Virus record (IMG/VR): IMGVR_UViG_3300025098_000327
Location: 1-21,746 of that record
DNA length: 21,746 bases
DNA from: a virus
Strand: one strand, 5' to 3'
Position 1 is the stretch's first letter; every line of letters begins with the position of its first letter. Below the pieces are notes generated by a model. It did not search any database. It saw only the letters and a list, made by a program, of their open reading frames with translations, and was not told the DNA's origin. Positions 4,316-19,521 of this stretch are shown one piece after another. A program made the translations under genes and the position numbers.

Positions 4316-5323
4316 TTATACTGCTCTTTTCATACAAGTTGATTCAGTAAGAACTTTCCATTTAGTTGGAGACATATTTCTAAGGTCTGCAATCTTTTGA
4401 GCCATTCTTAAAGAAATCTCTCTTAACCTGTCTTTCTTTTCATACATGAACTCAATGATTTCTTGTTCTTGTATCTTAGTAAGACCTTTACTATCAAACA
4501 ATCCACCTTCTCTGGCAATCTGTTTAATTCTTAACAACTTATCTCTAGTAGTGTCAAGTGTAAGGTCAAGATAATGACACCTAGAAAGAATTGCTTCTAA
4601 GTGGTCTTTGATTTTAGTTTGTCTAGTACTATCAAACTTTAAGTTTGTAATAAAGATAACTGAACCGTTGAATTCAAACTCACCAGGAACGCCTTCTCTT
4701 CTTAAAAAGTTAGAGTCCGAGTTCCAAGAAATCTTTCTTTTCTTACCGCTATCAAGTGCGGCTTTAAGAATGTTCAAGGCATCTTCATTAAAAAGAATAG
4801 TATCACAGTCATCCAGAACAACAATGCTCTTGGAATCTGAATACTTATAAAGAGTACTATATAGACCAATTGCCGACATGGCACCTTTTACAAAAGTATG
4901 TCTAAGAGGCTTATCAGCCATCATATCAAACAAACTATCTTTTTCAAGTACTTGTTCAACACCAAACGTTTTACCAACTCCTGGAGGTCCTGTTACTACC
5001 ATACCTCTAACAATGCCATCTAATGTAGCATTAGTCATTTCGTCTAGAATTTCAAAACGTTCTTTAATTCTATCCATTCCTTGTTCGTCAGTTTCAACAA
5101 GTTTTTTATTTGCTGAACCTTCGACTTCGGTAACTTGGTCTTGATTTTCGATTTTAACTCTACAAGCATCTTTACCTTTAAATACTCGTTCATCGGAATC
5201 AGTCACTTTAACTTTCACAAAGTATGACCCGTCTTTTGATTTTGTAATACCTTTAACTAATGGGAAACAACCGTTTATCTCGGTATTGTTATAAGACCCA
5301 TTTTCTATTTTTACTATATTCAT
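4316..5323 (-). CDS. AAA+ family ATPase (335 aa)
   Basis: The ATG at 5323 is chosen because GAGAGGG lies 6 bases upstream; an ATG 15 bases further upstream lacks a ribosome binding site. Residues 1-60 form a beta-rich N-terminal domain unlike T4 gp44. Walker A GPPGVGKT is at 112-119, Walker B IVVLDDCD at 167-174, a sensor-1-like stretch VIFITNLKFD follows, and an arginine-finger-like SRCHYLDL comes before a helical lid. Such ATPases remodel protein or DNA complexes. I recall relatives in marine myoviruses, annotated only as AAA ATPase. It is not convincingly gp44. It has its own promoter and terminator, so it is monocistronic. Confidence 0.88.
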   Translation of the reverse strand: MNIVKIENGSYNNTEINGCFPLVKGITKSKDGSYFVKVKVTDSDERVFKGKDACRVKIENQDQVTEVEGSANKKLVETDEQGMDRIKERFEILDEMTNATLDGIVRGMVVTGPPGVGKTFGVEQVLEKDSLFDMMADKPLRHTFVKGAMSAIGLYSTLYKYSDSKSIVVLDDCDTILFNEDALNILKAALDSGKKRKISWNSDSNFLRREGVPGEFEFNGSVIFITNLKFDSTRQTKIKDHLEAILSRCHYLDLTLDTTRDKLLRIKQIAREGGLFDSKGLTKIQEQEIIEFMYEKKDRLREISLRMAQKIADLRNMSPTKWKVLTESTCMKRAV

Positions 5324-5355
5324 TTTAAACCCTCTCATTTGTTTAATTTAAGTAT

Positions 5356-5383
5356 ATTATAGCACAGATATCATATCTGTCAA
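5356..5383 (-). promoter_or_regulatory. Consensus sigma-70-like promoter with embedded palindrome (AAA+ gene)
   Basis: On the minus strand TTGACA (5378-5383), 16-base spacer, TATAAT (5356-5361), both hexamers perfect. A palindrome ACAGATATCATATCTGT (arms 5364-5371 and 5373-5380) fills most of the spacer and runs into the -35 box, a natural place for a repressor operator. The predicted leader to the ATG at 5323 is about 25 bases. Confidence 0.9.
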
Positions 5384-5391
5384 GTTTTTAA

Positions 5392-5820
5392 CTATTTCGC
5401 TCCCTTAAATTCATAAGGTTTGTTCCACTTACCAATGTTAAGGTGAGTGTAATAAGCAGTATCAAAGTAATCAATCATTGCATCTGATTTGTCATACCAA
5501 GCACGACCACCCTCTATTGATGCTGGTGCAGTCTTCATAATTTTGACAATTTCACTGAATAATGCTTTATGTTTACCGTAATTTTCAGGATAATACTCAT
5601 TGATTTGCTCATAACCATCGAACTTATGGGCTGGAGCCTCTTTGTTCCATGGGTCTTCACGGTCTAAACTTCCGTCAAAGAAGTTTATTTCGCCAGAAAC
5701 AATAGAAACATTAAGACTTGAATAGTGTTCTCTACGAACGGAGAACTTGATTTTGTTTTTAAATCGCTCTTTAAGAGCAACTCTAACCGCTTTTACTTCT
5801 TCTGTTGATATATAAGCCAT
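5392..5820 (-). CDS. LPD29-like conserved phage protein (142 aa)
   Basis: The start at ATG 5820 has GAGAGGG upstream. The N-terminal 60 residues (EVKAVRVALKERFKNKIKFSV followed by a beta hairpin and GEINFFDG) resemble the large-polyvalent-protein-associated domain LPD29: a Lys-x-x-Arg-x-x-Leu-Lys helix, then a KFSVR strand. The C-terminal block DYFDTAYYTHLNIGKWNKPYEF recurs, from memory, in small marine phage proteins. LPD domains often occur in proteins used early against the host, but no activity is known for this one. It is monocistronic, with a promoter at 5853-5880 whose -35 region is a near copy of that of the next gene. Confidence 0.8.
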   Translation of the reverse strand: MAYISTEEVKAVRVALKERFKNKIKFSVRREHYSSLNVSIVSGEINFFDGSLDREDPWNKEAPAHKFDGYEQINEYYPENYGKHKALFSEIVKIMKTAPASIEGGRAWYDKSDAMIDYFDTAYYTHLNIGKWNKPYEFKGAK

Positions 5821-5852
5821 ATTTAACCCTCTCTTTTATTGAATATACTTAT

Positions 5853-5880
5853 AGTATACACCAAATAGAGGATTTGTCAA
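5853..5880 (-). promoter_or_regulatory. Sigma-70-like promoter for the LPD29-like gene
   Basis: Minus strand TTGACA (5875-5880), 16-base spacer, TATACT (5853-5858). The 20 bases covering and upstream of the -35 (5875-5894) match those at 5378-5397 at 19 of 20 positions. A small inverted repeat CAAAT/ATTTG (5862-5866, 5872-5876) lies in the spacer. Confidence 0.87.
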
Positions 5881-5904
5881 GTTTTTGACTATTTTTAAGT
5901 TAAA

Positions 5905-6141
5905 TTAAGCAGGAATTGGCTTATTTTTTTGTGGTTTTGCGTCTAAAACATCCCATTTTTCAATAAAATTCTCTAAATCTGTGTCTATTATTGAGCGAGT
6001 ATTACCTGACTCTACATAACTATAAGACAAAGATATAACATAAGGATTATCAGGTGGATAGTATACATCTGTAATCTTTGCTATTTTATGAGAATGTTTA
6101 TGTTGTATAACTGTTCCCACTTTTATTGTTGGTTGGTTCAT
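5905..6141 (-). CDS. Hypothetical protein (78 aa)
   Basis: Not recognised. The ATG overlaps the prs stop by four bases (ATGA) and there is no clear ribosome binding site, so it is probably read by translational coupling. The sequence begins with a small beta-rich region ([23 protein letters not shown]) that looks like an SH3-like or OB-like barrel, and ends with a Lys/Pro tail. It is the last gene of the membrane protein-prs unit. Confidence 0.72.
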
Positions 6142-7091
6142 AATTTTATGTTGTTATTAAACAAACTACTCACACTTTCTTCATTACTTACTCTGCGAAT
6201 TGCTTCACCGAATAATTTTGATACTGACACTGCTCGTGTCTTTTTACAATCATTTGGACATTTAAAATCAATACTGTCCGTTATGACTAATTCTTCTAAC
6301 ACACTATTCTCTACCTTTTGACAGGCTTCACCAGTTAAAACACCATGAGTAATATATGCTCTTACACTTAATGCACCTGCATCTATGATTGCCTGTGCGG
6401 CATTACATAATGTTCCGCCACTGTCAACAATATCATCAACTAGAATAGCATGTTGCCCATCAACATCACCAATAATATTCATTACTTCACTTTGGCCTGC
6501 TCTTGGTCTGCGTTTATCAACAATCGCAATATCTTCATGGAACATATCAGCAAACTTTCTTGCTCTAACAGTACCACCAGCATCTGGTGAAACAAATACT
6601 GTATTTTGATATGCTTTCTTTCCTAACTTTCTTTTAATATCTTTAGCAAAAGCAACTCTACTTGTTAAATCATCAAGTGGAATATCAAAGAAACCTTGAA
6701 TCTGTCCAGCATGTAAGTCCATCGTAAGAACTCTATCTGCACCGGCTTCTGTAATTAGATTTGCTACTAGTTTAGCAGTAATTGGCGTACGACTTGCACT
6801 TTTTCTATCTTGTCTTGCGTAACCAAAATAAGGAATAACTGCCGTAATACGTTTTGCACTACTACGTTTTGCCGCATCAATCATAATCATTAATTCCATT
6901 AGATTATCATTAACCGGTGTACTTGTACTTTGTATAATGAAAACATCTTCACCACGTATGTTTTCTAAAAATTCTACACTGCTTTCACCATCTGCAAATG
7001 TTTTTATTTCTGCTGGAACCAAACTTGAAAAACAATAACCAGCAATTTCTTCTGCAAGGGGCAAGTTACTATTTCCTGCTATGATTTTCAT
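6138..7091 (-). CDS. prs: Ribose-phosphate pyrophosphokinase (PRPP synthetase)
   Basis: A full-length 317-residue enzyme that makes PRPP from ribose 5-phosphate and ATP. Visible landmarks are the [13 protein letters not shown] helix (61-73), the catalytic flexible loop [20 protein letters not shown] (88-107), [12 protein letters not shown] (125-136), [18 protein letters not shown] (193-210), the PRPP loop [11 protein letters not shown] (217-227) and the conserved C-terminal [13 protein letters not shown]. No catalytic block is missing. The loop wording ([38 protein letters not shown]) is of the alphaproteobacterial type, suggesting capture from such a host. The start overlaps the upstream membrane-protein stop (ATGA) and the stop overlaps the next start. 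It could feed the phosphoribosyltransferase at 1-410 and nucleotide synthesis. Confidence 0.96.
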
Positions 7092-8088: not shown

Positions 8089-8871
8089 TTATTTAGGTAA
8101 CCTCACGATATCTTCTTCTACACACTTGTCGCCATACTGTACTTCTAATATGTGACATGGTTCATTTGTTTCGTTACATGCTTGGTGCCATTCATTTTTT
8201 TGAATTGTCACTGTCTGATGTTCTTTGAATGTTCCTGACCATTCAATGTCAGAGGAAGCATTTATTGTATTAAATGAGCATTCTCCTTTAAGTATATACC
8301 AATGCTCTGCTCTATGTTCGTGGCGTTGCATACTTAGACTTTGACCAGGTGCAATTATTAATTCTTTTACTTTATATCCTGATTTATCATCTAACACTCT
8401 ATACCATCCCCAATTACGAATCGTTTTAGGTGATTTCCATTCTTCTAATATTAAACTACTTGAATTCTTTTTATCTTCTCCGCCTACTCCCCACATAAAA
8501 CCAAATCCAGGTGAAGTATCTGCGATAGATGTTGCAAATTCTAATTCAGGCGTGTTACCTTTCTTTCTATCACCACCATTGGCAAAGATTATTTGGTCAT
8601 TTGGATAATGTGCAATAACTTGTTTAATAAAATTGATAGCAGTATCATCGTCATCCATAAAGGTGAAGACTTCATCTACCATCTGTAAGTTATTAAGAAT
8701 TGCTAGACGCTCATTCCAAGGCATAAAAGATTTGCCCTTTTTGCGTTCTAACCATTCATCTGAGTTTAAGCCCACAATGAGCATGTCGCCCATTTCTTTA
8801 GCGGCTTTGAGATATGAGATATGACCAGAATGAACTGGGTCAAATCCACCAGTTGCAAGAACTATTTTCAT
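8089..8871 (-). CDS. Nucleotidyltransferase-cupin fusion protein
   Basis: A 260-residue two-domain protein. Residues 1-145 are a cytidylyltransferase-like domain of the HIGH-superfamily type: GGFDPVHSGH at 8-17 gives the nucleotide-binding HxGH signature, and EDKKNSSSLIL at 132-142 matches the C-terminal phosphate-binding motif. Relatives include glycerol-3-phosphate cytidylyltransferase and the adenylyltransferase domain of HldE. Residues 148-260 form a cupin like the C-terminal domain of type II mannose-6-phosphate isomerase: PGQSLSMQRHEHRAEHWYILKG at 175-196, with His184, His186, His190 and His229 as probable metal ligands. Both domains are typical of activated-sugar metabolism, so it may make or modify a nucleotide sugar for the host envelope or virion. 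It starts directly at the previous stop. Confidence 0.87.
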   Translation of the reverse strand: MKIVLATGGFDPVHSGHISYLKAAKEMGDMLIVGLNSDEWLERKKGKSFMPWNERLAILNNLQMVDEVFTFMDDDDTAINFIKQVIAHYPNDQIIFANGGDRKKGNTPELEFATSIADTSPGFGFMWGVGGEDKKNSSSLILEEWKSPKTIRNWGWYRVLDDKSGYKVKELIIAPGQSLSMQRHEHRAEHWYILKGECSFNTINASSDIEWSGTFKEHQTVTIQKNEWHQACNETNEPCHILEVQYGDKCVEEDIVRLPK

Positions 8872-9042
8872 TTACTTCTGTCTAACTTCTTCTTGGAATC
8901 TATTGGTTAAGAAATCTAAGTTCTTCTTAAGCCATTCTTTTTGAGTGTAATCTACTTTTTCATTCCACTGCATCTTTTCATCAAGGTGGTCCATCCATGT
9001 ATTTTGAATCCATGCATTAAATTCTAAACCCATTTTAGTCAT
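8872..9042 (-). CDS. Possible separately translated C-terminal form (56 aa) of the preceding gene
   Basis: An in-frame ATG at 9042 is preceded by AAGGAG (9049-9054) with an ideal 6-base spacing, stronger than the site of the full-length start. Translation from here would give a 56-residue helical protein ending in RFQEEVRQK. Whether it is made as well as, or instead of, the fused form cannot be told from sequence. Confidence 0.45.
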   Translation of the reverse strand: MTKMGLEFNAWIQNTWMDHLDEKMQWNEKVDYTQKEWLKKNLDFLTNRFQEEVRQK

Positions 9043-9297
9043 TTTTTTCTCCTTCGTTAAGTGTATTTCTATGATTGGATGGTCGTTAACAAACTTCATT
9101 ACGGTTTCGTATTGCTCACATACTCCATCTTTAATATTAGCATTGCCAATATCCATCATAATCTTTTGTAATTTTAAAATAACCTGTTGGTCAACAGTCC
9201 TAGGTACTAAACAAAAATGTGCATCGTTATGTGGTGTTAACGCAACAAAATCTTTCACTTGATAATCTACTGTACCAATTGTATCAAGGTCTATCAT
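8872..9297 (-). CDS. Hypothetical protein (141 aa) with an internal translation start
   Basis: The start at ATG 9297 overlaps the nrdB stop as ATGA; upstream in-frame codons lie inside nrdB in another frame and are rejected. The N-terminal half (MIDLDTIGTVDYQVKDFVAL...) is alpha/beta with no recognised motif. From residue 86 (MTKMGLEFNAWIQNTWMDHL) the protein becomes a helical, Trp-rich, charged module that has its own AAGGAG site and ATG at 9042. The two halves may once have been separate genes. It is followed without a gap by the nucleotidyltransferase-cupin gene. Confidence 0.75.
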   Translation of the reverse strand: MIDLDTIGTVDYQVKDFVALTPHNDAHFCLVPRTVDQQVILKLQKIMMDIGNANIKDGVCEQYETVMKFVNDHPIIEIHLTKEKKMTKMGLEFNAWIQNTWMDHLDEKMQWNEKVDYTQKEWLKKNLDFLTNRFQEEVRQK

Positions 9298-10427
9298 AGT
9301 GACATTCCACCAAATGTGTCTTCTGATACATCTTGTTTGACTCCTCCTTGTATATAAGAAGTAATCTCTGTTTCTTGTGGCGCTACTTGTACATCTGCGC
9401 CTGCAATCCATTTCTGTGTCCATGGTAACGGATTTGCTTGTGGTACTGTATATGGACATTTTAGATTTACAGCAATCATACGTTTACAGCAAATCCATTC
9501 AATATAATCACTTAATAGTTGTGTGTTTAGTCCAATCATACTGCCATCTTTAAATAGATATTCTGCCCATGCCTTTTCTTGTTCGACTGCATCAACAAAC
9601 ATTTGAATACATTCTTCTTCTGTTTCTTTAGCAATCTTAATATAATCTTTATCGTCTTTTGGCAAAACCTTAAGAAGTGATTGTGTAGATGCTAAGTGCA
9701 AGTTTTCGTCACGTGCAATTAGTTTAATAATCTTGGCATTACCTTCCATCTTCTTAAGTTCTGCAAATGCCCATGAACATGCAAATGATACATAGAAACG
9801 AACACCTTCTAAGATATTGACACTCATTAGTGTTTTATATAATGCTTTCTTAAGTTCGTATAAGTCTACTTCAACTTTCTTGCCATTGATTGTGTGTTTA
9901 CCTTCTCCTAGCAATTGATATTTTAATGACAAGTCAATAAGTTCGTCATAGTTAGTACTAATGGCATCAGCACAATCTGTAATCTCATTAATGGACATCA
10001 TTTCATCAAATACTTTACTAGGATTAGCATATACGTTACGAATAATATGTGTATAACTGCGACTGTGAATTGTTTCACTAAATGTCCAAGTTTGAATCCA
10101 CGCTTCTAGTTCCGGAATACTTACTAGTGGTCCAAATGCTTCTACTGGCGCACGACCTTGTACACTATCTAATATGATTTGTCTTTTGAGATTACTTGTG
10201 AATATATGTCTTTCATTCTCTGTAAGATTATTGAAGTCGTTTGCATCTTTATGACAATCGACTTCTTCTGGTCGCCAAAAGAAACCTAACTGCTTATCAG
10301 TTAGTTTATCAAACTGTTTGTACTTCAACATATCATATCGTTGAATTGTTACACCACCTGATGGGTCCAAGAAAGCCTTTGCTTTGGTGTGGTCTTGTTT
10401 ATTTTTTGAATTAAATACTGTTGTCAT
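9294..10427 (-). CDS. nrdB: Ribonucleoside-diphosphate reductase class Ia, small subunit
   Basis: A 377-residue beta subunit that makes the tyrosyl radical used by NrdA. The start ATG 10427 (MTTVFNSKN) has GAGGAAAG upstream and lies 10 bases after the nrdA stop. The di-iron ligands expected from E. coli NrdB are present: Asp87 (ILDSVQG), Glu118 and His121 (FSETIHSRSYTH), Glu207 (LEGVRF), Glu241 and His244 (RDENLH). The radical Tyr is Tyr125, which marks class Ia rather than a Tyr-less subgroup. T4 NrdB has 388 residues. The C-terminal tail EDTFGGMSL should dock on NrdA. It supplies dNTPs for phage replication. Confidence 0.97.
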   Translation of the reverse strand: MTTVFNSKNKQDHTKAKAFLDPSGGVTIQRYDMLKYKQFDKLTDKQLGFFWRPEEVDCHKDANDFNNLTENERHIFTSNLKRQIILDSVQGRAPVEAFGPLVSIPELEAWIQTWTFSETIHSRSYTHIIRNVYANPSKVFDEMMSINEITDCADAISTNYDELIDLSLKYQLLGEGKHTINGKKVEVDLYELKKALYKTLMSVNILEGVRFYVSFACSWAFAELKKMEGNAKIIKLIARDENLHLASTQSLLKVLPKDDKDYIKIAKETEEECIQMFVDAVEQEKAWAEYLFKDGSMIGLNTQLLSDYIEWICCKRMIAVNLKCPYTVPQANPLPWTQKWIAGADVQVAPQETEITSYIQGGVKQDVSEDTFGGMSL

Positions 10428-10437
10428 CTTCTTTCCT

Positions 10438-12732
10438 CTATATTGTGCAACCTTCACAATCCTCATCATCTATTAATCCTGGCTCTAATGGTTCATCATT
10501 AAGAGCATTAATATCTACTTCTCCTTGGCCGTCAAATGTATTGAAATAATACAACTGTTTGCCACCATATTTATAAAACATAATCAAATGTTGTAACATC
10601 TCCGACATTGGAATCTTTTCATCTTCATAATGTACAGGGTTGTAACTTGTATTTACTGATATACCTTGGTCAATATACTTTTGTAATACTGCCATAATCT
10701 TTAAGTAACCCTCTGGTGATTTTTGGTCCCACAGAAGTTCATATCTACTTTTTAACTTATGAATACCAGGAACTACTTGCTTTAACACACCGTGCTTACT
10801 TTGTTTAACACTCACCAAACTACGTGGTGGTTCAATACCATTTGTTGAGTTAGAAATCTGTGCTGATGTTTCAGCAGGCATAAGTGCCATTAGTGTTGAG
10901 TTTCTTACTCCATGTTCTTTTAAGTCTTCTCTAAGACCTTTCCAATCCATTCTCTCTGAGTGTTTTACTAGTTCATCAATCTCTACTTTACGAGTATCAA
11001 TCGGAACAACACCATGTCCGTATTTTGTTTCATCAGATTTAGGGCAAGGTCCAATCTCTTTTGCCAAATTATTTGATGCTTTGATTAGATAATAACTCCA
11101 TGCTTCTGCCCATTCATCTACTAATTCTAAGTTAGGGTCAGAATAATTTGTATCATTTTTAGCCAACCAATACGCAAAATTAATAATGCCTACGCCCAAA
11201 GGTCTCCTGTTATCTGTTGCTAACTCGGCCGCAATGAGTGGATAATCTTGGTAACTCAATAGAGCATCAAGTCCTCTTACTGCTAACTCACAAGGCTTTT
11301 CAAAATCTTCTGGTGATTTAATATTTCCCCAATTGATTGCACTGAGTGTACAGAGAGCAATTTCGCCCTCTTCATCAATTACACTGTTCAATGGCTTAGT
11401 CGGAAGAGTAATCTCACAACATAGATTTGATTGTTTAACTGGTGCGACCTCTGAAATGAAAGAACTATGGTCATTCGCATGGTCTACATTTTGAAGATAG
11501 ATTCGACCTGTATTCTTGCGTTCATTCATAAATGATGAAAATAATTCAATCGCAGGTACTGTTTTCTTACGAATAGATGTCTTGCGTTCTGCTTGTTCGT
11601 ATAATTCACGGAACTTATCTTGGTCATTAAAGAATGATTCATATAGTCCTGGTACATCTTGTGGTGAAAACAAAGTAATATTGCCACCTGACATTAGACG
11701 TTCATACATCAACTTATTAAACTGTACCCCATAATCCATGTGTCTAACACGATTATCTTCTGTACCTTTATTGTTCTTTAATACAAGTAAGTCTTCTACT
11801 TCTAAATGCCAAACAGGATAATATAATGTTGCCGCACCACCACGAACACCGCCTTGTGAACATGATTTTACTGCCGCTTGAAACATTTTATAGAATGGAA
11901 TAACACCTGTATGACTTGCATCTCCATTACGAATAGGTGAGTTTATTGCACGGATACTACCCGCACCAACCCCAATTCCTGCTTTCTGAGAGACATATTT
12001 AACAATTGAACTAGATGTCGCATTGATGCTATCTAAACTATCATCTGTTTCGATTAGTACACAACTACTGAATTGTCTTTGTGGTGTTCGTACACCTGCC
12101 ATAACAGGAGTTGGTAAAGAGATATCAAAAGTACTAATTGCATCATAGTAATCTTTTACCCATTTTAATCTTTCTTCTTTATCATATTTACTGAATAGTG
12201 TTGCCGCAATTAACATATATGCCATTTGTGGTGTTTCATATATTGTGCCAGTAACACGATTTTGAACTAGATATTTTCCTCGAAACTGTTCCATCCCTAC
12301 ATAAGTAATATCAAAATCTCTATCATGTTTGATGAAACTATTAATCTTTTCCCATTCTTCTACAGTATAATCTTCTAATAAAGACTTATCATAAAATCCA
12401 GAGTTGACATTTTGTTTAACTAAATCAAGTACATGAGATGGCTCAAAAGCACCATACACTTCTTTTCTAATATGATAATTAATTAGATTTCCTGCAACCC
12501 ATTGATAATTTGGTGTGTCTTCTGTTATTAGTTCAGCGGCCGCTTTAATTAATGTTTCTTGTATCTCACTACTTGTCATTCCGCTATAAAATTGAATATG
12601 TGATTTTAATTCAACTTCACTTGCTGATACATTATTAATATTATTACATGCTTCAAACACAACTTTGTGCATTTTTTCTAAATCTAGTTCTTCTTTCTCT
12701 CCGTTTCTTTTAACTATGTGAATCCCAGTCAT
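10438..12732 (-). CDS. nrdA: Ribonucleoside-diphosphate reductase class Ia, large subunit
   Basis: A 764-residue catalytic subunit; T4 NrdA has about 754. An N-terminal ATP-cone-like region (residues 5-90, starting IHIVKRNGEKEELD) suggests allosteric control of overall activity. Active-site residues equivalent to E. coli are Cys224 (FSSC), Asn436, Cys438 and Glu440 (SNLCCEITLPT), Cys461 (ALCTLSAINWG) and the Tyr pair in KQLYYFNTFDG. The C-terminal CxxC (EDCEGCTI, Cys759 and Cys762) is the swinging arm reduced by glutaredoxin or thioredoxin, which is not encoded in this window. The start ATG 12732 has GAGGAA upstream. The extra Cys439 next to the radical Cys is mildly unusual. Confidence 0.97.
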   Translation of the reverse strand: MTGIHIVKRNGEKEELDLEKMHKVVFEACNNINNVSASEVELKSHIQFYSGMTSSEIQETLIKAAAELITEDTPNYQWVAGNLINYHIRKEVYGAFEPSHVLDLVKQNVNSGFYDKSLLEDYTVEEWEKINSFIKHDRDFDITYVGMEQFRGKYLVQNRVTGTIYETPQMAYMLIAATLFSKYDKEERLKWVKDYYDAISTFDISLPTPVMAGVRTPQRQFSSCVLIETDDSLDSINATSSSIVKYVSQKAGIGVGAGSIRAINSPIRNGDASHTGVIPFYKMFQAAVKSCSQGGVRGGAATLYYPVWHLEVEDLLVLKNNKGTEDNRVRHMDYGVQFNKLMYERLMSGGNITLFSPQDVPGLYESFFNDQDKFRELYEQAERKTSIRKKTVPAIELFSSFMNERKNTGRIYLQNVDHANDHSSFISEVAPVKQSNLCCEITLPTKPLNSVIDEEGEIALCTLSAINWGNIKSPEDFEKPCELAVRGLDALLSYQDYPLIAAELATDNRRPLGVGIINFAYWLAKNDTNYSDPNLELVDEWAEAWSYYLIKASNNLAKEIGPCPKSDETKYGHGVVPIDTRKVEIDELVKHSERMDWKGLREDLKEHGVRNSTLMALMPAETSAQISNSTNGIEPPRSLVSVKQSKHGVLKQVVPGIHKLKSRYELLWDQKSPEGYLKIMAVLQKYIDQGISVNTSYNPVHYEDEKIPMSEMLQHLIMFYKYGGKQLYYFNTFDGQGEVDINALNDEPLEPGLIDDEDCEGCTI

Positions 12733-12745
12733 TGTTCCTCATTCC

Positions 12746-13210
12746 CTAATATGTGTTAATCTCTGAATCTTCCATTCCTGCCACACGTAACTTAATTATG
12801 TTTGACAGTTGAAAGTGTTTGATTTCAAAGCCTTTTGTTATTCCTAGGTATTGATTTCTTACAAGTGCTACTTGATTTATCAATTCACCAATTGCAACAA
12901 TTTCGTCTTCTCCATCGGCATACTTTTCAGCATCTCTGCTACTCAATACTTTATTATAATTCTCTAAATATTTTCTTAGATACGAACTTCTCTTTTTACG
13001 TAACTGAATATTCAGATGTTCAAGTATTGCTTCAATCTCTTGTAACTGGGCAAATCTTAATTCAACGAATGCAGGAAGTTGAGTAGAGTTCTTTTCAATA
13101 TTACCCTTAATCTTAACTTCCTTTCTCGCATCTAGCAACTCGCTTTCAAAAAATTGAATGCAGTTTGGAATTTTACTCCAGTCTTTTACTATGTCACTAT
13201 ACCAATTCAT
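12746..13210 (-). CDS. uvsY: UvsY-like recombination mediator
   Basis: A 154-residue protein starting at ATG 13210, which overlaps the previous stop as TAATG; an in-frame TTG upstream is less likely. The C-terminus TKGFEIKHFQLSNIIK matches the end of T4 UvsY (SRGFAIKHIQDMRAFE), and the body is a long, basic, helical region with KKRSSYLRKYLENYNKVL. T4 UvsY (137 aa) is a hexamer that displaces gp32 and loads UvsX on single-stranded DNA. Position beside uvsX and gp32 fits this. Confidence comes from both the motif and the neighbourhood. Confidence 0.9.
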   Translation of the reverse strand: MNWYSDIVKDWSKIPNCIQFFESELLDARKEVKIKGNIEKNSTQLPAFVELRFAQLQEIEAILEHLNIQLRKKRSSYLRKYLENYNKVLSSRDAEKYADGEDEIVAIGELINQVALVRNQYLGITKGFEIKHFQLSNIIKLRVAGMEDSEINTY

Positions 13211-13440
13211 TAGTCCCAATCATCGTCTTCTTCATAATAATCCTCATCATCATCTTCAAAATATCGGTCTAGTGCGACTTCTAGTATCTTATCTCCGTCG
13301 ATTAATATCTCTATGTCTTCCGGACTCATTCCTAGTTCGTCACACTGTTTGATAAACATCTCACCTGCTTCGATTCTGTCTTTTCCTGGGATGTAAGTTA
13401 GTAAAGTCTCCCATAACTCATAAAGCGATTCTGATTCCAA
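13210..13440 (-). CDS. Small acidic phage protein with TTG start (76 aa)
   Basis: An in-frame TAA precedes the coding region and there is no ATG before residue 28, so the TTG at 13440 is the start. GAGGAG lies 6 bases upstream of it. The protein has a helical part (LYELWETLLTYIPGKDRIEAG) and an extremely acidic tail with about 17 Asp/Glu in the last 22 residues. The same layout recurs, as I recall, in marine T4-like phages between uvsX and uvsY. The acidic tail resembles DNA-mimic or gp32-type tails, and a role in modulating DNA-binding proteins is plausible but unproven. Confidence 0.82.
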   Translation of the reverse strand: MESESLYELWETLLTYIPGKDRIEAGEMFIKQCDELGMSPEDIEILIDGDKILEVALDRYFEDDDEDYYEEDDDWD

Positions 13441-19444: not shown

Positions 19445-19521
19445 CTGCCCGTAGTTCAGTTGGATAGAACATTGGTTTGCGGAACCAAAGGTCACAAGTT
19501 CGAATCTTGTCGGGCAGGCCA
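19445..19521 (+). tRNA. tRNA-Arg, anticodon GCG, with encoded CCA
   Basis: A 77-base cloverleaf. Acceptor CTGCCCG pairs perfectly with CGGGCAG, D stem GTTC/GAAC with an Arg-typical A in the D loop, anticodon stem TTGGT/ACCAA with loop TTGCGGA (anticodon GCG at 19479-19481), T stem ACAAG/CTTGT with loop TTCGAAT, discriminator G and CCA. It reads CGC and, by wobble, CGU. Bacterial arginine tRNAs for this box normally carry ACG (inosine), so GCG is unusual. Confidence 0.95.

Follow-up and report, generated by a model that had tools for sequence, protein, structure and literature searches.

What is made by a phage protein in which a nucleotidyltransferase is joined to a mannose-isomerase-type cupin? 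The question is raised by a minus-strand open reading frame (ORF), 8089-8871, of the marine IMG/VR virus record IMGVR_UViG_3300025098_000327, of which we analyzed a stretch of 21,746 nucleotides (positions 1 to 21,746, hereafter the window). The ORF starts with an ATG and encodes 260 residues (Table 1). With a confidence that falls a little short of even, we propose that this fusion is a bifunctional enzyme of sugar activation, organized as ManC is but with a HIGH-superfamily nucleotidyltransferase in place of the GT-A one. The enzyme would probably convert one sugar phosphate into another and attach it to a nucleotide; we infer both the substrate and the nucleotide, and mannose is the most likely sugar.

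The original prediction, made from the sequence alone, had described this two-domain architecture, and it was borne out by Pfam, NCBIfam, an AlphaFold2 model and VIA-align. Residues 6-84 match PF01467 (CTP_transf_like; 1.4e-14, 54.9 bits vs. a gathering score of 21) and residues 149-258 match PF01050 (MannoseP_isomer; 7.6e-22, 78.1 bits vs. a gathering score of 23.6); the N domain belongs to PF01467 and the cupin to the type II phosphomannose isomerase (PMI) family PF01050. In NCBIfam the N domain scored best with rfaE_dom_II (TIGR02199, 79 bits vs. a cut-off of 181.5), reached 51.2 bits with the TagD equivalog TIGR01518 (cut-off 165.4) and remained below the cut-off of every equivalog family scanned. 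The ManC profile TIGR01479 gave 72.5 bits (cut-off 372.95) over profile positions 357-461 only, and PF00483, the GT-A guanylyltransferase domain, was not among the Pfam matches of the window protein, whose N domain matches PF01467 instead. The protein is not ManC, because both the guanylyltransferase domain and a full-length TIGR01479 score were looked for and neither was found. A role in NAD salvage as NMNAT was rejected, the profile matches being merely weak. Structure prediction, which had been suggested as a check, yielded both folds (mean pLDDT 87.1, pTM 0.58); as modelled, the domain folds are good and the relative orientation of the two domains is uncertain. The cupin model is closest to a Thermococcus phosphomannose isomerase (7zvm; Z 16.7, root-mean-square deviation 1.4, 101 aligned residues, 21% identity). 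The closest structures to the N-domain model are 3glv (Z 15.8), HldC (5xf2, Z 15.3) and TagD (2b7l, Z 15.0), the last aligning without gaps along residues 1-70.

To define conserved positions we used 91 non-redundant fusions (90% identity filter), made up of 39 phage-contig sequences and 52 of the 74 that are full-length in the genome collection; among these 52, L095 is phage-like. In the N domain D11, H14, G16, H17, K44, K45, R55, N98-R102 and S138 are invariant in all 91, and S137 and S139 are kept in 90. The (T/S)xxx(I) nucleotide motif falls at residues 136-139. In the cupin W154, G155, K169, S180, Q182, H184, R187, E189, G196, H229, N233, E243, G247, E252, D254 and R257 are invariant in all 91, and His186 (27/91) and His190 (33/91) are not conserved. 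When 21 cupin positions were compared with E. coli ManC, 19 were identical in the window protein, including every one that is invariant among the 91. The cupin contains the patterns G-x5-Q-x-H-x4-E-x6-G and H-x3-N, which fit the two cupin motifs with Gln replacing the first His. Type I PMIs bind their metal through a Q-H-E-H set, and the metal ligands here are likely Gln182, His184, Glu189 and His229. The HxGH motif and the cupin ligands are therefore kept, as had been predicted, but the latter are not histidines only. The reading as one enzyme of two domains, each with its active site intact, and its tie to sugar activation are supported. Because E. coli CpsB is annotated as a guanylyltransferase only, we take the residue identity with ManC as a sign of kinship and not of isomerase activity.

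A search for the same domain fusion, the second check that had been suggested, found it in viruses and in bacterial chromosomes. Relatives are encoded by 114 IMG/VR stretches, of which the best 80 were analyzed, and at least 393 were found in the genome collection, 80 of them being analyzed; among the matches listed the latter come mostly from SAR86, Pelagibacteraceae and other marine bacteria. The 114 viral relatives and the conservation of both domains across phages and bacteria indicate that 8089-8871 is a real two-domain gene and not a chance ORF. The full-length fusion is present in 20 of 25 genomes in the family of a Pelagibacteraceae (SAR11) genome, with one more cut at a contig end, and a match spanning both domains is present in 32 of 40 genomes of a SAR86 family, one of them with internal stops. 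In 22 loci, with neighbours counted as mechanical ORFs of at least 90 residues, the fusion lies between a gene that we judged by eye from its sequence to be polA (cluster 3) and an MFS-like gene. Since it occupies this setting and occurs in both SAR11 and SAR86 genomes, the fusion is a bacterial chromosomal gene that phages also carry. No phage record (0 of 49 matching) and no plasmid record (0 of 393 matching) covers 80% of the query in one place, though records very near that of the window may be excluded from this count. Versions consisting of the N domain only occur in bacteria as well as in phages; those of the cyanophages P-TIM68 (5986-6447) and S-SCSM2R (5989-6450) are about 49% identical and lie shortly downstream of the DNA polymerase, next to or near recA/uvsX. 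L095, a section of a 335-kb contig assigned to a Neomarinimicrobiota metagenome-assembled genome, reads as phage, with relatives of gp32, uvsX and uvsW and glycosyltransferase-like genes, and the phage or bacterial origin of one further locus (L174) is uncertain. A search with narrow terms, mostly without subscription journals, returned no publication that we recognized as describing this fusion, so its absence from print is unproven.

We then looked for ManC (TIGR01479) and for Gmd in the 25 SAR11 genomes and in 15 of the 40 SAR86-family genomes, the 15 being chosen among fusion carriers. TIGR01479 was over its cut-off in none of the 25 SAR11 and none of the 15 SAR86-family genomes. The guanylyltransferase part of ManC gave no match above 20 bits in the 25 SAR11 genomes and a maximum of 25.3 bits across all 40 genomes searched. 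Gmd was over its cut-off in 14 of the 25 SAR11 genomes, 12 of them with the fusion, and in 4 of the 15 SAR86-family genomes, all with the fusion; PGM_PMM is present in 24 of the 25 SAR11 genomes. PF00483 proteins were listed for 12 of the 25 SAR11 genomes, chosen for a Gmd over cut-off, and fully classified in one, G054, where the three are GlmU, an RmlA-like and a MurU-like protein. Gmd (562 bits) and a phosphohexomutase are encoded there too, together with a gene like that of GDP-fucose synthase (480.7 bits, cut-off 500). If its Gmd is used, GDP-mannose needs a maker, and the fusion would be the best candidate that we found. A SAR86-family genome without the fusion (G089) offers a second clue. 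There, the fusion profile matches the cupin only, within a 465-residue ORF that is a canonical ManC (450 bits, cut-off 373) and lies just upstream of an RNase-D-like gene. In three other loci (L136, L154 and L160) the fusion itself lies just upstream of the same RNase-D-like gene (50-56% identical), and two further downstream genes, 64-99% identical, are common to G089 and these loci. In L168 one gene separates the fusion from the RNase-D-like gene, and another SAR86-family genome without the fusion (G086) has a single-domain PMI cupin.

The two domains do not share one history. Over the 741 pairs of the 39 phage proteins, identities of the N domain (mean 71%) and of the cupin (mean 46%) are uncorrelated (r 0.07), and some cupins are about 33% identical while their N domains are 88-95% identical. 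The trees of the two domains have 21 of 88 splits in common, and 13 of the 28 supported N-domain splits conflict with one that is supported for the cupin. In approximately unbiased tests each domain's tree was rejected on the alignment of the other (p 1.5e-14 and 1.3e-4); these tests bear on whole topologies and do not count events. Between L043 and L079, DNA identity runs at 48-81% over the first 460 or so nucleotides of the gene and at 96-100% from there almost to its end, and L029 and L056 have the reverse pattern, with identity dropping from 86-100% to about 53-63% near nucleotides 404-461. The two domains have exchanged partners, and the exchange point is the linker.

The original prediction had read the nrdAB neighbourhood as informative. 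The gene context was as stated, with nrdA, nrdB and prs on the strand of the fusion, but among 82 phage loci compared (the window, 80 viral loci and L095) only 22, the window group, have nrdB or the gene-11/gene-12 families nearby. In 54 of the 82 a glycosyltransferase-like (cluster-4) gene lies within three genes of the fusion, and six fit neither rule. Because nrd/prs-type neighbours are found in 22 loci and cluster-4 neighbours in 54, the nrdAB setting is particular to one phage group and incidental; in SAR11 the neighbours are polA and the MFS-like gene. Cluster 4 was built by single linkage, and of five members scanned with Pfam two match Glyco_transf_8 (GT8) just over cut-off and three match no family, so that the term glycosyltransferase-like is firm for part of the cluster only. 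It had also been remarked that no glycosyltransferase was seen to use the product. This holds for the window and, as regards GT8, for all seven records of its group that were searched (itself among them); however, 16 of the 25 phage records searched do match GT8, 12 of them over cut-off, and the longest relative of the window group (L200, a 115-kb record from the contig of L005) has a TET-associated glycosyltransferase (TAGT) at 5041-5979 (PF20691, 4.1e-46). PF00535 gave sub-threshold matches only (6 of 24 phage records searched). Also encoded in the 115-kb record are an epimerase, a gene of the UDP-glucose/GDP-mannose-dehydrogenase type and another CTP_transf_like nucleotidyltransferase, this one unfused (L201:5001-5420, TIGR02199 67 bits).

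We favour a ManC-like working because Gmd is found in 14 of the 25 SAR11 genomes vs. no ManC guanylyltransferase part, because of the slot replacement in G089, because all the invariant cupin residues are identical in E. coli ManC, and because of the fold matches and of the glycosyltransferase-like and polysaccharide-gene neighbours. In such an enzyme the cupin, with its metal held by Q182, H184, E189 and H229, would interconvert fructose-6-phosphate and mannose-6-phosphate, as ManC residue identity and the PMI fold suggest. A separate phosphomannomutase, in phages that of the host, would give mannose-1-phosphate, and the N domain, judging from its motifs, would move a nucleoside monophosphate from the triphosphate onto the sugar-1-phosphate. 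GTP is the best guess for the nucleotide in SAR11, since Gmd needs GDP-mannose. In phages the product would most plausibly feed glycosyltransferases of the same genome, whose target would be the host envelope, the virion or, for the window group, perhaps DNA. With ManC/AlgA (GMP-PMI, e.g. E. coli CpsB) the fusion shares the C-terminal type II PMI cupin and its invariant residues, an N-terminal nucleotidyltransferase, the domain order and, in one comparison, the chromosomal slot; it differs in its HIGH-type CTP_transf_like N domain in place of PF00483, in its length (260 vs. about 470 residues) and in matching TIGR01479 at the C terminus only. RfaE domain II and HldC (TIGR02199; 5xf2, 3glv) share the N-domain fold and the HxGH motif, and TagD (2b7l, 1coz) shares the fold and the gapless first 70 residues; unlike these, the N domain is fused to a cupin here, its scores are 79 vs. 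181.5 and 51 vs. 165.4 bits, respectively, and HldA is mostly absent from the SAR11 fusion carriers. The single-domain Thermococcus phosphomannose isomerase (7zvm, 7zvy) provides the closest cupin structures but is unfused and only 21% identical.

A more specific claim, about which we are doubtful, is that the fusion serves SAR11 and SAR86 as their missing GDP-mannose synthase, an independently assembled second isomerase/guanylyltransferase in which a HIGH-superfamily domain does the guanylyl transfer of ManC, and which marine T4-related phages carry while exchanging its cupin as a module. Several observations weigh against a ManC-like enzyme. The N domain scores best with a heptose-1-phosphate adenylyltransferase (79 bits, below cut-off) and with no guanylyltransferase, and we know of no HIGH-family sugar nucleotidyltransferase that uses GTP. 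The cyanophages have N-domain-only homologues, and CpsB, with the same cupin residues, carries only the guanylyltransferase annotation; the enzyme activity is a proposed one. Gmd occurs in the absence of the fusion in two SAR11 genomes, G037 and G055; in the latter, a protein resembling guanylyltransferases (100 and 92 bits, both short of the cut-offs) is encoded one gene away from gmd. An RmlA-like protein could make GDP-mannose, and the completeness of the compared genomes is unreported. GmhA is found (above 70 bits) in 6 of the 21 SAR11 fusion carriers, and L115 has GmhA/GmhB/HddC-like genes adjoining the fusion. For the slot comparison there is a single genome with ManC, and the slot lies at the variable end of a polysaccharide island.

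Some of these observations would suit a heptose enzyme, in which ADP- (or GDP-) heptose comes from the N domain, as from HldE and HldC, and the cupin isomerizes a heptose or sedoheptulose phosphate. RfaE domain II, 3glv and HldC are its best NCBIfam and structure matches, a transaldolase stands with the Hdd- and Gmh-like genes of L115, and PHROG 7878 bears a heptose name. We nonetheless regard this as unlikely, given the score below cut-off, the ManC residues kept by the cupin and the scarcity in SAR11 of HldA kinase (above 60 bits in 4 of 25 genomes, 3 of the 21 fusion carriers) and GmhA (above 70 bits in 8 of 25). A TagD-like cytidylyltransferase acting on a non-anomeric phosphate (glycerol or another polyol phosphate), with a cupin that isomerizes or epimerizes a linked sugar phosphate, would leave both the ManC gap and the slot replacement unexplained and agrees poorly with the 51 bits for TagD; we hold it to be distinctly unlikely, in spite of the TagD fold match with its gapless alignment and of the cyanophage N-only homologues, which are annotated as glycerol-3-phosphate cytidylyltransferase.

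In another reading the nucleotidyltransferase is tuned by a cupin that binds a sugar phosphate and either has no catalytic role or acts differently, so that the frequent exchange of cupins would reflect regulation or specificity. Cupins of about 33% identity on nearly constant N domains and the N-only versions of phages and bacteria would be consistent with this, but pure binding would not require that the PMI residues all be invariant in 91 of 91 fusions, and we find it improbable. For the phage group of the window, a nucleotide sugar destined for DNA modification and tied to the nrd genes appears quite improbable: the TAGT of the 115-kb relative and the nrd neighbours point that way, yet TAGT was found in a single record, the other compared loci, most of them short, showing none, and most relatives have no nrd neighbours. 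For TAGT, the addition of a second glucose onto glucosylated cytosine in T6-like phages has been proposed (PMC13390438), which we counted in favour of this possibility.

As for the virus itself, the window TerL is closest (53%) to those of PA5oct-type Pseudomonas phages, followed by Sinorhizobium and Agrobacterium phages, and on this ground we do not call it a pelagimyophage. Pelagimyophages have been reported to carry rfaE and glycosyltransferases, mostly GT8 (PMC7029224); the portion of that paper available to us contains no mention that we found of a nucleotidyltransferase, mannose or a cupin. A glycerol-3-phosphate cytidylyltransferase is mentioned for Baikal phages (PMC7678222), and the table of a Pelagibacter glycosyltransferase lists GDP-mannose (PMC8231724). 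Elsewhere in the window we observed an AAA ATPase (4316-5338; PHROG 1250, 4.7e-90) with a weak likeness to clamp loaders and a tRNA-Arg (gcg) at 19445-19521 on the plus strand, opposite to the gene block. In another phage record two ORFs (L199:10860-11912 and 11926-13431) look by eye like the tripartite tricarboxylate transporter parts TctC and TctA.

Table 1 Features of the fusion gene and its neighbours in the window.
Feature	Position	Strand	Evidence or remark
Fusion gene	8089..8871	-	260 residues; ATG start codon abuts stop of upstream ORF
N domain, residues 1-148, CTP_transf_like / RfaE-II-type nucleotidyltransferase	8428..8871	-	Pfam, NCBIfam, structure match
Residues 11-17, HxGH motif (H14, G16, H17)	8821..8841	-	91/91 fusions
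K44 and K45; K44 aligns to Lys44 of B. subtilis TagD	8737..8742	-	Alignment, conservation
Residues 98-102, NGGDR	8566..8580	-	91/91 fusions
Residues 136-139, NSSS	8455..8466	-	S138 91/91; S137 and S139 90/91
Linker, residues 140-153	8413..8454	-	Holds the DNA breakpoints of domain exchange in relatives; DNA comparison of relatives
C domain, residues 149-258, type II phosphomannose-isomerase cupin	8098..8427	-	Pfam, structure match, ManC alignment
Residues 182-189, likely metal ligands Q182, H184 and E189, plus R187	8305..8328	-	Conservation, ManC alignment
Residues 229-233, likely metal ligand H229, plus N233	8173..8187	-	Conservation, ManC alignment
Residues 243-257, with E243, G247, E252, D254 and R257 identical in E. 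coli ManC	8101..8145	-	Conservation, ManC alignment
Upstream ORF, cluster 11	8872..9459	-	Nothing over cut-off in Pfam; the true start is probably internal; ORF list
nrdB	9294..10469	-	Pfam, PHROG
nrdA	10438..12732	-	Pfam, PHROG
prs, ribose-phosphate pyrophosphokinase	6138..7091	-	Pfam, PHROG

In all, marine phages carry and remodel what would be a host sugar-activation enzyme, exchanging its domains at the linker. The abundant ocean bacteria that have the fusion seem to be without the usual enzyme, and the fusion may be an overlooked replacement. If it does prove to be a GDP-mannose synthase, a non-homologous substitute for a textbook enzyme would close a nucleotide-sugar gap in these bacteria and would be nearly universal in one of the most abundant bacterial groups of the ocean, and the exchange of cupins may retune the sugar supplied to the glycosyltransferases of the phages.
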